This document shows, one piece after another, positions 9,048-15,756 of a stretch of DNA of 64,000 nt. Made by a program: the position numbers and the translations under genes. The DNA lies in contig CALFUU010000012.1 in NCBI GenBank assembly GCA_937929835.1, positions 1 through 64,000 of the forward strand. Direction: 5' to 3'. A model generated the notes under the pieces. It searched no databases, was not told the origin of the DNA, and saw only the letters and a program-made list of their open reading frames with translations. The stretch's first letter is position 1. Each line of letters starts with the position of its first letter. Source of the DNA: an uncultured Saprospiraceae bacterium. GTDB lineage: Bacteria; Bacteroidota; Bacteroidia; Chitinophagales; Saprospiraceae.

Positions 9048-10310
9048 ATGCATATCGATGTTTTATTGGGTTTACAATGGGGAGATGAAGGAAAGGGCAA
9101 GATAGTTGATTATCTAGCTGACGATTACGACCTCATATGTAGATTCCAAGGTGGCCCTAATGCTGGGCATACAATAGTTATAGACGGCACTAAGCATGTA
9201 CTCCATACTATACCCTCGGGTATATTTAGGGATAAGGTCATCAATGTCATAGGTAATGGCGTAGTTATAGACCCTATTGTCTTTGCTCGTGAGATACAAG
9301 GCCTCCTGGATCACGGCATAGATATCAGTAGGATAAAGGTGGCACGCAAAGCACATCTCATCTTGCCTACCCATAGATTCTTAGATGCTGCCTCTGAGGC
9401 TTCCAAAGGAAAAGACAAAATCGGCTCTACACTAAGGGGTATAGGTCCAACTTATATGGACAAGACCGGTCGTAATGGTCTACGAGTGGGGGATATAGAA
9501 TCTCCAGACTTTAGAGATAGATACAACAGCCTTAAGCATAAGCATCTTGCTCTGGCCAAAATATATCCGGAAGTTGCCTTTGACTTGGAGAAAGAAGAGG
9601 AGGCATTCTTTACAAATCTTGAAGTCCTCAAGAAGTTGGAATTTATCAACTGTTCTTATTATGTCAACGAGGCCTTACAATATGGTAAGAAAATTCTCGC
9701 GGAAGGGGCTCAGGGTTCTATGTTGGATATAGATTACGGTACATATCCTTTTGTTACTTCCTCCAATACATTGACCGCTGGTGTTTGTGTTGGACTAGGA
9801 GTGGCCCCTTCGACGATAGGGAAAGTATACGGGATCACCAAGTCGTATTGTACTAGAGTAGGGGGAGGTCCTTTCCCTACAGAGTTAGATAATGATTTAG
9901 GAGAAGAGCTCCGACAGATCGGTGCAGAATTCGGTGCTACTACAGGTCGACCTAGAAGGACGGGATGGATAGACTTACCACAACTGAAGTATACAGTTAT
10001 GCTCAACGGGGTCAGTCATCTCTGCGTCACCAAGATGGATTGTCTCAATACCTTTAAGCAGATAGAACTCGCCACTGAGTATGAAATCAAGGGAGAGAAA
10101 ACTAAGCAGTTGGCCTATGATCTCTCATCGGATCTCAAGCCGCATTACACTGCACTCAAGGGTTGGAACCAAAACATTAATGACATCAAAGATTTTGATA
10201 AGATGCCTATTGAAGTCAAAGACTACATAGCATTTATAGAAGAATACTTAGGCGTACCTGTGACAATGTTGAGTACTGGACCTGAAAGGGAAGCCCTTAT
10301 AGTTCGATAA
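9048..10310 (+). CDS. purA: Adenylosuccinate synthetase
   Basis: 420 residues. PurA catalyses GTP-dependent ligation of IMP and aspartate to adenylosuccinate, the first committed step of AMP synthesis. The N-terminal LLGLQWGDEGKGKIVDYL P-loop, GGPNAGHT, the IGSTLRGIGPTYMDK signature, GTYPFVTSSNT and the C-terminal substrate loop region GATTGRPRRTGWIDL are all present, so the enzyme should be active. ATG start. Transcribed toward the methyltransferase gene on the opposite strand, with only 23 bases between the stops. Confidence 0.97.
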   Translation: MHIDVLLGLQWGDEGKGKIVDYLADDYDLICRFQGGPNAGHTIVIDGTKHVLHTIPSGIFRDKVINVIGNGVVIDPIVFAREIQGLLDHGIDISRIKVARKAHLILPTHRFLDAASEASKGKDKIGSTLRGIGPTYMDKTGRNGLRVGDIESPDFRDRYNSLKHKHLALAKIYPEVAFDLEKEEEAFFTNLEVLKKLEFINCSYYVNEALQYGKKILAEGAQGSMLDIDYGTYPFVTSSNTLTAGVCVGLGVAPSTIGKVYGITKSYCTRVGGGPFPTELDNDLGEELRQIGAEFGATTGRPRRTGWIDLPQLKYTVMLNGVSHLCVTKMDCLNTFKQIELATEYEIKGEKTKQLAYDLSSDLKPHYTALKGWNQNINDIKDFDKMPIEVKDYIAFIEEYLGVPVTMLSTGPEREALIVR

Positions 10311-10333: not shown

Positions 10334-11023
10334 TTAAATTTCTGCTGAGACCATATACTGGTACTCTAGGGTATTGTCATCTGTGATGATGTTTTTATAC
10401 CCAGCGGCTTCGAGTTGATCTTCTAATTTATATAAGACGAGTCTGTTATCGAAGCTCGGAGCGGGGACAAATTCAGGAAGGCGCTTGTTTTTGTAGTCAA
10501 CTATAAAAAGTTTACCGCCACTCTTGAGATGTCCTCTGAGATTCCTGAGGTATTCTATACGCGGACTTAGGTAGGCGACTGTATTAACGATGAGTATGAT
10601 ATCTGCTTCTCCCGCTGCTAGTTGGGGATCATTTACTTGGGCCAATCGGATGTCTAAGTTTTCTTGAAGGTCAGGATTCAGGGTACTCTTAAATCCTTGG
10701 AGGATCTCTATTTTATCCGTGTCGATATCGACGGCGATAACTTTCTTACACTTCGGTAAGAGCTTAAAGGCGAAGTAGCCTATCCCAGCTCCAAGATCCA
10801 CAACTGTCTTGTCTTCCAGCGGTCCTAAAGCTCTTATGACATCAAATGGCTTCTGCCAGCTCATCCTTTTGTCCGTGTCATCCATTATAGGATCCGCTCC
10901 GTCTGCTGACTGCTGAGGCGCAACAACCTCTTTTGTAGAGATAGTCGATTGAGGTGCCTCAGATTTACAAGCAAACAGACTGAGAGTTATGGATAAGACA
11001 AAGATCAATTTGGCATTAGACAT
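10334..11023 (-). CDS. Lipoprotein with class I SAM-dependent methyltransferase domain
   Basis: 229 residues. The N-terminus KLIFVLSITLSLFACKS is a lipoprotein signal peptide with a lipobox ending at Cys19, followed by a Ser/Thr/Gln-rich linker to ~45. From ~55 the chain is a Rossmann methyltransferase: motif I VVDLGAGIGYFAFKLL, an acidic residue at the end of strand 2 (VIAVDID), and motif IV/V segments ADIILIVNTVAYL and LKSGGKLFIVDYK. The family uses S-adenosylmethionine, which is not known to be abundant outside the cytoplasm, so the predicted export is odd. Substrate unknown. It is separated from the downstream end of the dacB gene by 21 bp on the same strand and could be the last gene of that operon. 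Confidence 0.8.
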   Translation of the reverse strand: MSNAKLIFVLSITLSLFACKSEAPQSTISTKEVVAPQQSADGADPIMDDTDKRMSWQKPFDVIRALGPLEDKTVVDLGAGIGYFAFKLLPKCKKVIAVDIDTDKIEILQGFKSTLNPDLQENLDIRLAQVNDPQLAAGEADIILIVNTVAYLSPRIEYLRNLRGHLKSGGKLFIVDYKNKRLPEFVPAPSFDNRLVLYKLEDQLEAAGYKNIITDDNTLEYQYMVSAEI

Positions 11024-11044: not shown

Positions 11045-12502
11045 TTAGCCTAGCTTATTGTAAATGCCAATTATCATTTTTTGTAACTGTGACCTTATTT
11101 TTTTGGGTTCAGAGGAGTATCCATTGACGATAAGAGAAAAGCTGTACCACTTTCCAGACTTTGATTTGATATACCCCGAATAACTCTGGACGCCTTCCAT
11201 ACTGCCACTCTTCAGCCAGATGTTACCTTTTATAGAACTACCACCAAACATTCCTCTTACAGTACCTTCCATTCCACCACGAGGTATATAGGCGGTAACT
11301 TGATCTATATCTATAGAACTGGACAGCCCAGATAAAAACTGCGCCATAGATTTAGCGCTGATGAGGTTTCTTGCAGATAGACCAGAACCATCATGTAAGT
11401 GGAGACTCTGCGTATCGACACCATATTTCCTCAATAGTCTTTTGACGGCGGCTAGACCATTTTGACCCGAACCTTGACCATTTTTTTTAAGGCCTATCAT
11501 TTTCAGTATCGCTTCAGTATACAGGTTGTTACTTTTAGCATTAGCTTGTTTGACTATGATAGATAGAGGGGGGCTATAAAGCGTGTCTATTGGATGGAAC
11601 TTCATCCATTGCGCTCTAAAAATATTTTTAACAGAGCCAGACTGTATGTGGGCCTTGTGCAAAGTTAATTGTAGTATCTCTCCCAAGAAGGTAGGCGGGT
11701 CAGGTATGGCTCCTTTTATTGTAAATGTACCAGCACCTTGTGGAATGGTACCTACTATTCTTTTCTTAAAATTATAGGGTCCACCAAAAATGTAAGCTTG
11801 ATCTCCAGTGTGCGAGGAGTCGACAACTATTTCGTTAGACAGTTCTAGATTATTGATAATCGGTTCAGTACTGTGTATGGATGGACGCTGGCCTATGACA
11901 CCTCGTTTTTTGAAATAGATGCGATACTGGTTTTCGTTGACATTAACTCCCCAAGCTCCCGTAGCATAATAATTGCCTAAGTCATTCCACTGCCAAGTAG
12001 GGGCAATAGGGTAGCTGTCATAAATAGACTCATCAATAACGATATCCCCGTCTATACAGTTGATCCCTTGATCTATAACTTGAGTTTTGATGTGATCAAG
12101 AAGTGTAACCAAATCTTTATTGCCCTTTATTTTGGATGATCCAAGAGTCGGGTCTCCTCCTCCTTTGATGACCAAATTTCCTTTGAGTGTACCGCTATCA
12201 TCTATATGGCCTGTGTAACCGATGATGGTCTCAAATCTAAAATCTTCCCCTAAATAATGTATCCCACTGAGGGTTGTGAAGAGCTTCAGTGAGGAAGCGG
12301 GGGTGGCAACTTTCTGCGATCGGTGACTTGCAATTTCTGTATGAGAGTCTACCTCATAAATTGATAAAGACAAGTTTGCTGATTTGTAAATGGAATGATC
12401 AGCGGCTTTATCGAGGTAGCTTTGTAAGGGTGTCTGTCCACAGAGAAAGGACAGGGCTACTAGGCCATTTAGTAAATTAGTTATCCAGAATTTCAGTTTC
12501 AT
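11045..12502 (-). CDS. dacB: D-alanyl-D-alanine carboxypeptidase/endopeptidase (PBP4 type, S13)
   Basis: 485 residues with an N-terminal signal peptide ending near LCGQ (residue 23). The three penicillin-binding motifs are in the right order: SxxK as PASSLKL (~67), SxN as AKSNNLY (~325) and KTG-type KSGSMEGV (~430). PBP4-like enzymes hydrolyse the terminal D-Ala or the cross-links of peptidoglycan in the periplasm. The ATG at 12502 lies inside the end of the upstream hydrolase gene (26-bp overlap), which argues for one operon and translational coupling with the RimK/M14 pair. Confidence 0.93.
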   Translation of the reverse strand: MKLKFWITNLLNGLVALSFLCGQTPLQSYLDKAADHSIYKSANLSLSIYEVDSHTEIASHRSQKVATPASSLKLFTTLSGIHYLGEDFRFETIIGYTGHIDDSGTLKGNLVIKGGGDPTLGSSKIKGNKDLVTLLDHIKTQVIDQGINCIDGDIVIDESIYDSYPIAPTWQWNDLGNYYATGAWGVNVNENQYRIYFKKRGVIGQRPSIHSTEPIINNLELSNEIVVDSSHTGDQAYIFGGPYNFKKRIVGTIPQGAGTFTIKGAIPDPPTFLGEILQLTLHKAHIQSGSVKNIFRAQWMKFHPIDTLYSPPLSIIVKQANAKSNNLYTEAILKMIGLKKNGQGSGQNGLAAVKRLLRKYGVDTQSLHLHDGSGLSARNLISAKSMAQFLSGLSSSIDIDQVTAYIPRGGMEGTVRGMFGGSSIKGNIWLKSGSMEGVQSYSGYIKSKSGKWYSFSLIVNGYSSEPKKIRSQLQKMIIGIYNKLG

Positions 12503-13448
12503 AACCTAAGTGAAATAAGGCGTCGCCTTGATTGACGACTGATGCATTATTGTGTCCGATAATATAGCCATCCTTATGGGCAATGACGCTGACTGACTTT
12601 TGACCACTAGGGTCGTTAATCGAGCCGAGCTTATCGCCTTTGACTACTTGTGTGCCGGATTTAGTTGTCCACAAAAATAGTCCAGAAAAAGATGCTCTTA
12701 TCCAAGTAGTCTTTTTAATTAATATTGGTGGGTCGGTTTTTTCGGCCTCAGGTGCTGATGATATGTGACCCATATGATGGAGGCAACGCATGAGTCCATC
12801 ATAACCCATATTAATGGCACTTTCATTGAGCCTAGTGGATTCGCCACCTTCATATACGAGTATTGGTATTTCGAAATCTCTTGCTATTTTCCTAAGTGAC
12901 TTGACGATAATACCACTTTGGATAATATACTTTGCACCGAACACTTTGGCCAACTCTTTGGCTACATTATCAGTGGGTGAGTATCTGATTTGTGGATAAT
13001 TATAACGGGAGTCACCACCTGTATGGAAGTCAAAGATATAATCTGCTAAAGGCAAGATATGTCTAGTCAATGTTCCTGCTATTCTAGAAGCCAAAGATCC
13101 GTTTTTCGTTCCTGGGAAACTCCTATTGACATCTTTGCCATCTGGTACATATCTATTAAAATTGATAAATCCATAGACATTAAGAAGTGGTATGACGATG
13201 ATACTTCCTTTGGTTATGTCTTTGCCAACTTTGTTGCTCAGGACTCTTCTGAGTATTTCTACGCCGTTGATTTCATCGCCATGGACGCCTCCAAGAAGTA
13301 AAGTCGTTGGGCCAGGATTCTTTGACCTAAATACATAAACCTGTACACTCAGTAAAGTATCTGAAGGTAACCTACCCACAGCCAATTGCACCAATCCATT
13401 CTCACCAGGTCTAAATACCTTAGAGTCTATCACAAATTTTTCTGACAT
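12477..13448 (-). CDS. Succinylglutamate desuccinylase/aspartoacylase-like M14 zinc hydrolase
   Basis: 323 residues from the ATG at 13448; a TTG one codon upstream is also possible. The zinc-site motifs of the AstE/AspA family are visible: LLGGVHGDEINGVEILRR (His and Glu ligands, ~55-70), FDFHTGG (~143) and the later acidic LVYEGGES (~200). The C-terminal part (GSINDPSGQKSVSVIAHKDG) resembles the barrel-sandwich domain of this family. It should hydrolyse an N-acyl amino acid or amide bond; the natural substrate is unknown. It starts 3 bp after the rimK-like stop and overlaps dacB by 26 bp. RimK plus M14-like hydrolase is a recurring pair in bacteria, consistent with opposing ligase and hydrolase activities. 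Confidence 0.85.
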   Translation of the reverse strand: MSEKFVIDSKVFRPGENGLVQLAVGRLPSDTLLSVQVYVFRSKNPGPTTLLLGGVHGDEINGVEILRRVLSNKVGKDITKGSIIVIPLLNVYGFINFNRYVPDGKDVNRSFPGTKNGSLASRIAGTLTRHILPLADYIFDFHTGGDSRYNYPQIRYSPTDNVAKELAKVFGAKYIIQSGIIVKSLRKIARDFEIPILVYEGGESTRLNESAINMGYDGLMRCLHHMGHISSAPEAEKTDPPILIKKTTWIRASFSGLFLWTTKSGTQVVKGDKLGSINDPSGQKSVSVIAHKDGYIIGHNNASVVNQGDALFHLGYETEILDN

Positions 13449-13451
13449 CAA

Positions 13452-14339
13452 TTATTTTACGGCTTGTATTTTTATACTTCTTTCTATAAAGTTGATGATG
13501 CGACCGGCAATATCTACTTTGGTGGTTGTCTCTATGCCTTCTAGACCGGGGGAGGCGTTGACCTCAAGAATAAGAGGGCCTCTTTTTGACCTTAACATAT
13601 CTACACCAGCTATCTTGAGTCCCAAATGCTTGACAGCATCGAGGGCAACTTTCTCCTCTTGTGCTGAAATAGGCTCTACTGAGGAGCTGCCACCGCGATG
13701 TAGATTAGACCTAAACTCACCTGGCTTGGCTTGACGTTTCATCGTGCCCACTATTTCTTGGTCTACAACAAAAATTCTGATATCTGCTCCTTTAGCTTCC
13801 GCGATAAACTCTTGCATCATCGATTTTTGCTTAGTCTTATTGAAAGCTTCTAGTATGGACTCTGCCTGACCTTTGCTCTCTGCTAAGACCACACCGATAC
13901 CATGCGTTCCATTAATGAGTTTGATGACGATATTATCATCAAAGGTATTGAGCAATTCTCCATACATCAAAGAGTTATTAGACACGATAGTTCTCGGTAT
14001 CTGTAAGCCTTTAGAGGCCAATATCTGAGAACAAGTCAACTTGTCTCGAGACATAAGAAGTGCATCAGAGCTTAAGGTGGTTATCACCCCTTTCTGTTCG
14101 AATTGTCTGATAACAGCCGCACCATAATTGGTATGCGAAGCACCTATCCTTGGGATTATTGCGTCTATATCTTTGATGACCTGTCCGTGGTACATTATGG
14201 TCAGATTTCCATCCTCCATTATAAGATCACAGTTGGTGTAATCTATGATTCTGACGTAATGATGCTTAACTCTTGCGGCACGAGCTAGACTCTGTGTGCT
14301 GTAGAGGGCAGGATTTCTAGACAGAATTGCAATGTTCAT
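13452..14339 (-). CDS. rimK: RimK-like ATP-grasp ligase
   Basis: 295 residues, close to E. coli RimK. RimK adds glutamate residues to the C-terminus of ribosomal protein S6 and can make poly-glutamate. Visible features: RimK N-terminal domain (IPRIGASHTNYGAAVIRQFE, ~85-104), ATP-grasp core with KLINGTHGIGVVLAES, MQEFIAEAKGADIRIFVV and the C-terminal metal site LILEVNASPGLEGIE (Glu and Asn ligands). First gene of the rimK-M14-dacB run. The exact acceptor, S6 or another peptide or small molecule, cannot be told from sequence. Confidence 0.9.
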   Translation of the reverse strand: MNIAILSRNPALYSTQSLARAARVKHHYVRIIDYTNCDLIMEDGNLTIMYHGQVIKDIDAIIPRIGASHTNYGAAVIRQFEQKGVITTLSSDALLMSRDKLTCSQILASKGLQIPRTIVSNNSLMYGELLNTFDDNIVIKLINGTHGIGVVLAESKGQAESILEAFNKTKQKSMMQEFIAEAKGADIRIFVVDQEIVGTMKRQAKPGEFRSNLHRGGSSSVEPISAQEEKVALDAVKHLGLKIAGVDMLRSKRGPLILEVNASPGLEGIETTTKVDIAGRIINFIERSIKIQAVK

Positions 14340-14469: not shown

Positions 14470-15756
14470 ATGCATACTGTCATAAAAAAGAACGATAAAA
14501 GCGTCATAAGAGGTTGGTCCTTTTTTGATTGGGCCAACTCTGCTTATGCCTTGGTGATTTCCACAGCGGTTTTTCCGCCTTTCTTTTCAGCTACGGCACC
14601 AGCGACTATGTCTTTTTTTGGTGTGTCTCTTACGAGTACGGCTCTCTACTCCTTTTCTATCTCTTTTGCATTTTTATTGAATGCAATTATGACGCCTTTT
14701 TTATCAGGATTAGCAGATTATTCAGGAAGACGACTATTTTTCTTGAAATTCTTTACGATTCTAGGCTCTATTGCTTGTATGAGTTTATTTTTCTTTGATG
14801 GACCTGATACCGCTTGGCTAGGATTGACATCCTTTGTATTAGGGACTATCGGCTTTGGTGCCTGTGTTGTTTTTTATAATTCTTATCTACCAGATATCGT
14901 TACAGAGGACCGACTGGATAAAGTCAGTGCCCAGGGATATGCCTATGGGTACATAGGCAGTGTTATCTTACTCCTTATCATCTTGGCTCTGATACACTTT
15001 AAAGATGCCTTGGGCTTTACCTCCGATTCATTGCCTGTAAGGCTAGGTTTTCTTTTAGTTGGTATCTGGTGGTATGGATTTGCCTTGCTTACTTTTAGAG
15101 TCTTACCTAAGGAGAATAAACTAAAGTTCAATACAAGCTTCTTATCTAAAGGACTTAAAGAGGTGACTTCTGTACTCAAACTACTGCTCCAGAATAAGAA
15201 CATAACGCTCTTTCTGACGGCTTATTTTTTCTTTATCGCTGGAGTCAATGTGGTCATTTATCTGGCAGCTGTATTCGCAGAGGATGTCTTAGATTTTGGT
15301 AGGACGGAGTTGATCATTTTGATATTGTTATTGCAGTTTTTAGCGATGATAGGGGCCTACTTCTTTGCATTCCTATCTAGTAAGATTGGCAATAAAGTAT
15401 CCTTACTTATCCAAGTCGCTATATGGATAGCCATCTGTACTACTGCTTACTTTGTGACTGGTAGCCAGGAGTTTTATATACTGTCTTGCTTTGTAGGATT
15501 GGTCTTTGGTGGTATTCAGTCTTTATCGCGTTCGACGTATAGTAAGATGCTAGATGACAACATTGAGTCGATGGCTTCTTACTTTAGTTTTTATGACGTG
15601 TTGACAAAGTTAGCAGTAGTGGCAGGGACTTTTATTTGGGGTTTGGTTAATCAACTGACCAATAACATGCGCTATTCTATTCTCTCTATAGCTATCTTTT
15701 TTGTTATTAGCTTTTTTATTCTATTGGCTGTCAAGGTAGAGAGAAAACAGCAATAG
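14470..15756 (+). CDS. MFS transporter, UMF1 (Atg22-like) family
   Basis: 428 residues with about 12 predicted membrane helices. The N-terminal signature RGWSFFDWANSAYALVISTAVFP and the mid-chain GLVFGGIQSLSRSTYSKM are characteristic of the UMF1/Atg22-like branch of the major facilitator superfamily. The substrate is not known for bacterial members. ATG start at 14470, divergent from rimK with 130 bp between. The stop is 2 bp from the convergent lipoprotein stop, with no clear terminator. Confidence 0.9.
   Translation: MHTVIKKNDKSVIRGWSFFDWANSAYALVISTAVFPPFFSATAPATMSFFGVSLTSTALYSFSISFAFLLNAIMTPFLSGLADYSGRRLFFLKFFTILGSIACMSLFFFDGPDTAWLGLTSFVLGTIGFGACVVFYNSYLPDIVTEDRLDKVSAQGYAYGYIGSVILLLIILALIHFKDALGFTSDSLPVRLGFLLVGIWWYGFALLTFRVLPKENKLKFNTSFLSKGLKEVTSVLKLLLQNKNITLFLTAYFFFIAGVNVVIYLAAVFAEDVLDFGRTELIILILLLQFLAMIGAYFFAFLSSKIGNKVSLLIQVAIWIAICTTAYFVTGSQEFYILSCFVGLVFGGIQSLSRSTYSKMLDDNIESMASYFSFYDVLTKLAVVAGTFIWGLVNQLTNNMRYSILSIAIFFVISFFILLAVKVERKQQ

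Follow-up and report, generated by a model that had tools for sequence, protein, structure and literature searches.

Why do a RimK-type ligase, an M14-clan zinc hydrolase and a PBP4-type carboxypeptidase follow one another so tightly in a Saprospiraceae genome, and do the three act together? The window analysed here is a stretch of 64,000 nucleotides (positions 1 to 64,000 of contig CALFUU010000012.1, assembly GCA_937929835.1) from an uncultured Saprospiraceae bacterium. All three genes lie on its minus strand, and their families were assigned with Pfam and NCBIfam:

rimK, 13452-14339, minus strand: 295 amino acids from an ATG start, with Rimk_N and RimK Pfam domains; an ATP-grasp alpha-L-glutamate ligase, the proposed writer of tails on ribosomal protein S6

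M14 gene, 12477-13448, minus strand: 323 amino acids from ATG 13448, with an AstE_AspA_cat domain; an M14-clan zinc hydrolase of the AstE/aspartoacylase (DoeB-like) family, the proposed glutamate eraser

dacB, 11045-12502, minus strand: 485 amino acids from an ATG start; a Peptidase_S13 / PBP4-type D-Ala-D-Ala carboxypeptidase/endopeptidase

A script run on the window gives a gap of 3 bp between rimK and the ATG of the M14 gene, and an overlap of 26 bp between the M14 gene and dacB; the list of open reading frames (ORFs) begins M14 at a TTG, one codon before ATG 13448. The recomputed coordinates, families, gap and overlap all bear out the three-gene anatomy of an earlier, sequence-only reading, which went on to propose a make-and-remove pair for an amino-acid tag, possibly tied through dacB to muropeptide turnover rather than to S6. 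We arrive at a different arrangement, to which we give roughly even odds (a probability of about 0.5): rimK and M14 would form a module of the writer/eraser type that acts in the cytoplasm on alpha-linked tails of glutamate. RimK would write these tails on S6, and the M14 product, a zinc hydrolase akin to AstE, DoeB and CphZ, would hydrolyse the RimK-made glutamates either directly on S6 or as released oligo-glutamate. DacB, an enzyme of the cell wall, would be exported; its gene lies in the same block and may be co-transcribed, but the protein would take no part in the module's chemistry.

The coupling of RimK and M14 was followed in 120 relatives, in a phylum sample of 345 genomes and at 80 named loci. 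M14 orthologs in the phylum sample were accepted at E <= 1e-40, a threshold of our own choice; weak RimK matches (including G035, at 34% identity, and a broken second RimK in G013), weak matches to the dacB C-terminus and M14 paralogs at or below ~125 bits were left out of the counts. The phylum sample holds M14 in 96 genomes, RimK in 106 and RimB (PF05618) in 95. RimK is present in all 96 of the M14 genomes, and M14 occurs in none of the 239 genomes without RimK. The two genes are adjacent in 65 of the 96 and co-occur without adjacency in the other 31. Among the relatives, 71 have a strong RimK match, 65 an M14 ortholog and 64 both; in 52 of these 64, M14 comes next after RimK in the same orientation, and in 55 the genes lie within 3 kb of each other (49/56 in the window's family, 6/8 outside it). 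RimK also stands beside M14 at 70 of the 80 named loci. It is strongly supported that RimK and M14 are a real functional couple. Because this coupling is joined by a hydrolase-type fold and zinc site, a make-and-remove pair, as proposed earlier, is a fair reading, with removal as its putative half. Our literature searches returned no paper pairing RimK with AstE/M14; Iyer 2009, on amidoligases, is possibly relevant and lay outside their coverage.

The M14 product matches PF24827 (AstE_AspA_cat) with an E-value of 7.4e-33, and its nearest named relatives are Saprospiraceae metagenome genomes, in a listing that may omit the window's own genome. Eight residues are invariant across 33 aligned orthologs: R155 and R186, together with H56, E59 and H142, which we take to be the zinc site (H-E-H), N108 and R109, presumably the NR carboxylate motif, and E200, presumably the catalytic Glu. 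The AlphaFold model (predicted local distance difference test 87.8, predicted template modelling score 0.87; below 50 on the first scale in the loop 93-103) matches AstE-type chains over its own full length, namely 3cdx (Z 32.4), DoeB (Z 32.0) and CphZ (Z 24.9). DoeB/EutE, an N-acetyl-diaminobutyrate deacetylase, is the closest characterised fold and has the same zinc site at 22% identity in the structural alignment, but R155 and R186 are missing from it, as they are from 3cdx (pairwise alignments, judged by eye), and the NCBIfam DoeB equivalog gives a weak full-length match of 101.1 bits that falls short of its cut-off of 402.7. AstE (Z 16.5) and aspartoacylase (Z 15.4) are further fold matches. 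Csd4 (Z 14.6) and the M14D enzyme BcCCP (Z 14.3, 204 residues aligned) match the catalytic part only, against Z 25-32 over the full length for the AstE-type chains. The fold and zinc site are compatible with an amide or peptide hydrolase, a shared fold being no proof of function.

RimK carries its two Pfam domains (PF18030, E 1.7e-33; PF08443, E 6.8e-57) and exceeds the cut-off of rimK_fam, and it scores 306.3 bits with the S6--L-glutamate ligase model PRK10446, slightly under that model's cut-off of 331. Its best full-length matches in the Protein Data Bank (PDB) are the S6-type RimK enzymes of Pseudomonas and E. coli. The residues that contact poly-glutamate in Pseudomonas RimK are described, along with genetic contexts, in parts of PMC10092738; mapped from an alignment with a one-residue shift after position 131, all seven are kept here (S7, R8, S14, R64, S68, R188 and N261). 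For RimK in the window's family, the likely target is S6.

The S6 of the window's own genome (contig C184, L064) has 222 amino acids and ends GEEE; its C-terminal extension weakly resembles a helix-hairpin-helix (HHH_5, 21.5 bits, under the cut-off). The S6 proteins of near relatives are also ~215-240 amino acids long, with an extension weakly like HHH_5/DUF4332 and the EEE end kept. Within the family, S6 ends EEE in 40 of 52 RimK-positive genomes against 3 of 13 RimK-negative ones (Fisher p 0.0005, uncorrected for relatedness); the S6 counts use 108 of 110 matches, G006 (broken frame) and G075 being left out. The linker ahead of the EEE is freely variable. Of the other long ORFs counted in these loci and in the window (640), 3 have an EEE end. 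Two of those three ORFs lie in a single rimK-M14 locus (L311). The three RimK-negative genomes with an EEE end are G020, which has M14, G032 (89% complete) and G051 (74% complete); in G032 dacB is at the edge of its contig (positions 1-1197), and its neighbours are possibly missing. In a second sample, the S6 of two of three further family members ends EEE. Together with the seven kept contacts, this pattern contradicts, within the family, the earlier suggestion that the tag may be tied to something other than ribosomal S6.

A system of this kind is already known. In the Pseudomonas rim operon, RimK adds poly-alpha-glutamate to S6 (RpsF) and the retropepsin-like protease RimB removes it (parts of PMC11957791 and PMC10092738); the former source also covers the distribution of RimK and RimB and RimBK hybrids. 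The window pair resembles that system in its ligase family, its poly-glutamate contacts, its linked hydrolase and, in the family, its likely S6 target. It differs in that its hydrolase belongs to the M14 zinc enzymes and is no aspartic protease, in its dacB neighbour, and in that no match to RimB was found in the window's own genome, which is 90.1% complete. RimA is likewise not among the genes noted, although no search aimed at it was made. An M14 zinc hydrolase as partner of RimK would be a variant of the known kind. RimB occurs in 15 of the 120 relatives, four of which (G008, G013, G016 and G034) belong to the same family as the window; since it was not found in most of the family, M14 would be the sole remover of a known type there. 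RimB adjoins a RimK in 13 of the 15 RimB-bearing relatives, the RimK copy of G013 being broken, and RimB, RimK and M14 stand in a row in six (G034, G080, G081, G088, G111 and G117). G008 (L118) and G013 (contig C18), which belong to the same genus, have RimB beside a second RimK, and the G013 copy is in two pieces with stops. Across the phylum sample, RimB accompanies RimK in 95 of 106 RimK genomes and is never found without it; nine RimK genomes hold M14 without RimB, and 2 of the 106 hold neither. Among the relatives, neither was found in 3 of 71 RimK genomes (G022, G031 and G060).

Eukaryotic tubulin offers a second comparison: ATP-grasp-type TTLL ligases write its glutamate tails and M14D cytosolic carboxypeptidases (CCPs) erase them. 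The logic of an ATP-grasp-type writer and an M14-clan eraser is shared; the window protein, however, is AstE-type, BcCCP aligns with its catalytic part alone, and any relation would be convergent (the context of bacterial M14D enzymes is treated in parts of PMC3940198). Tentatively, and with less confidence than we give the module itself, M14 may act as a zinc carboxypeptidase, removing from S6 the glutamates that RimK has added; this cycle would be convergent with TTLL/CCP, and M14 would have replaced RimB in the Saprospiraceae as S6 gained an encoded EEE end. The CphZ family provides a third comparison, as an AstE/M14-type hydrolase for cyanophycin dipeptides encoded beside the synthetase CphA1 (parts of PMC10206079). 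As in the window, a hydrolase of M14/AstE type is paired with an amino-acid-polymer ligase, and the structural match is full-length, but the polymer is cyanophycin rather than poly-glutamate and the identity is 17%.

Several observations weigh against the proposed module. The aspartoacylase lid domain is said to hinder access of polypeptides, and the nearest characterised relatives, DoeB and CphZ, act on small molecules; oligo-glutamate would therefore be favoured over S6 as the M14 substrate. G020 (98% complete) carries M14 with no RimK found, M14 is missing in 7 of the 71 RimK-positive relatives, and 12 of the 52 RimK-positive family S6 proteins have no EEE end. Outside the family, an EE end is found in none of 43 RimK-positive S6 proteins, even where RimK, RimB and M14 are all present, and in the relatives sample in none of 11 from the order outside the family. 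For tree-controlled tests of the association between S6 ends and RimK, the trees of the S6 core (68 rows) and PurA (46 rows) are poorly resolved, with 2 and 4 supported independent pairs, too few for adequate power, and nothing significant; the PurA pairs lean slightly the opposite way when the three doubtful genomes are included (0.6 same, 1.0 opposite). Because S6 is rarely glutamate-ended in RimK genomes outside the family, the EEE signal is confined to the window's family, and because the count there is 0/43, M14 is tied to RimK and not everywhere to a glutamate-ended S6. We rejected the EEE end as a phylum-wide marker on this count and on two of 24 RimK-negative S6 proteins outside the family, in the second sample, that end EE; the phylum reading of S6 covered 70 of 80, with 10 of the 24+10 RimK-negative matches left out. 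That some bacteria have an S6 not ending in glutamate is also stated in parts of PMC11957791.

These points bear on how the rival explanations are weighed. M14 may spare S6 and, in the manner of CphZ, finish the free poly-alpha- or oligo-glutamate that RimK makes, recycling glutamate and limiting the RimK product. The closest characterised folds, CphZ and DoeB, have small substrates, the Pseudomonas ligase produces free poly-alpha-glutamate both in vitro and in vivo (parts of PMC11957791), and M14 accompanies RimK also where S6 is not glutamate-ended; however, the known endo-cutter RimB is missing from most of the family, so short glutamate pieces have no obvious source there, and the EEE pattern indicates S6 as the RimK target in the family. 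On balance we find this explanation possible but rather doubtful. It is unlikely that RimK is not an S6 ligase here and that the pair makes and breaks some small peptide or amide metabolite. Such a role would suit the PRK10446 score slightly under the cut-off, the methanogen RimK homologs that act on cofactors (parts of PMC11957791) and the presence in the same genome of a second pair, an ATP-grasp enzyme with an M14 paralog, which in several relatives stands beside a further ligase-like gene; against it are the full-length PDB matches to S6-type RimK, the kept poly-glutamate contacts and an S6 EEE end that tracks RimK in the family. Another rival, which we consider very unlikely, sees M14 as nothing more than a deacylase of N-acyl amino acids with the activity of AstE or DoeB, and the supply of glutamate as its only link to RimK. 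The AstE_AspA_cat assignment and the weak full-length DoeB match fit such an enzyme, but the absence of M14 from every phylum genome without RimK would be left unexplained.

The second pair consists of a glutathione-synthetase-like ATP-grasp enzyme and the M14 paralog (L002 580-2046 and contig C61 19385-20218). Just upstream lie a basic ORF of 48 amino acids ending SEEE and an acidic ORF of 104 amino acids that has no family. A similar small ORF, ending EEEE, is present in G011 (L314); none was seen at L320 or L324.

The place of dacB turns on the wider gene block, of which three further genes are needed here:

MFS/Atg22-like transporter gene, 14470-15756, plus strand: divergent, a conserved flank of rimK, used as a synteny control

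methyltransferase-domain gene, 10334-11023, minus strand: downstream of dacB, a member of the conserved block

purA, 9048-10310, plus strand: a member of the conserved block

DacB exceeds the cut-off of the PBP4 equivalog TIGR00666 (236.2 bits against 107.8) and has the motifs SSLK at 70, SNN at 324 and KSG at 431 (SxxK, SxN and KTG-type). Its N-terminus, MKLKFWITNLLNGLVALSFLCGQ, is signal-like as judged by eye, without a predictor, and the product is probably exported. By eye, the N-termini of RimK and M14 show no signal-like stretch. Among the 47 relatives holding all three genes, dacB comes next after M14 in 25, of which 13 belong to the window's genus and 12 to other genera of its family. 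The order is seen in neither of the two outside the family, so that all 25 instances lie within it; another 18 relatives have dacB but neither RimK nor M14. At the named loci, dacB comes next after the pair in 39 of the 70 with rimK beside M14. The close relative G011 has an M14/dacB overlap of the same size (26 bp, judged by match ends); among the 25 relatives with the two genes adjacent, match ends overlap in 4 and are 4-154 bp apart in 21. Of the 53 family genomes with both rimK and the MFS gene, 45 have the two no more than 3 kb apart; for dacB and purA, with a limit of 4 kb, the figure is 23 of 49, and the methyltransferase gene often lies between these two. The methyltransferase-domain protein has a lipoprotein-like signal, LSLFAC (by eye), which is odd for an enzyme using cytoplasmic S-adenosylmethionine.

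The sequence-only reading had the pair work with dacB on muropeptides, and its adjacency in the relatives and at the named loci is what recommends this, together with a catalytic fold that M14 has in common with the murein enzymes MpaA and Csd4 and with G022 (L116) and G036 (L117), which keep dacB directly beside rimK with no adjacent M14, convergent in L117. Yet dacB is probably exported and RimK and M14 are not, and MpaA and Csd4 match the catalytic part only, with Z values roughly half that for DoeB. In the remaining genomes dacB lies away from the pair. The flanks behave as a block when it does: 15 of 24 dacB-free rimK-M14 pairs retain the MFS neighbour, and for the 27 family dacB genes away from RimK/M14, purA is matched in 24 genomes and lies within 4 kb in 8. 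Because of this block synteny and the patchy adjacency, dacB was set aside as the default functional partner, and a tie to muropeptides through it now appears highly improbable. DacB is probably a syntenic neighbour from an inherited gene block and not part of the module, with which co-expression is still compatible.

Should the RimK-M14 module prove to be a glutamate writer and eraser, a widespread protein annotated merely as succinylglutamate desuccinylase/aspartoacylase would gain a role in ribosome modification. Reversible S6 glutamylation would then have two unrelated erasers, the aspartic RimB and the zinc-dependent M14. An S6 ending EEE would be a simple genomic marker for RimK acting on S6, and the lineages in which RimK must have another target would be exposed.

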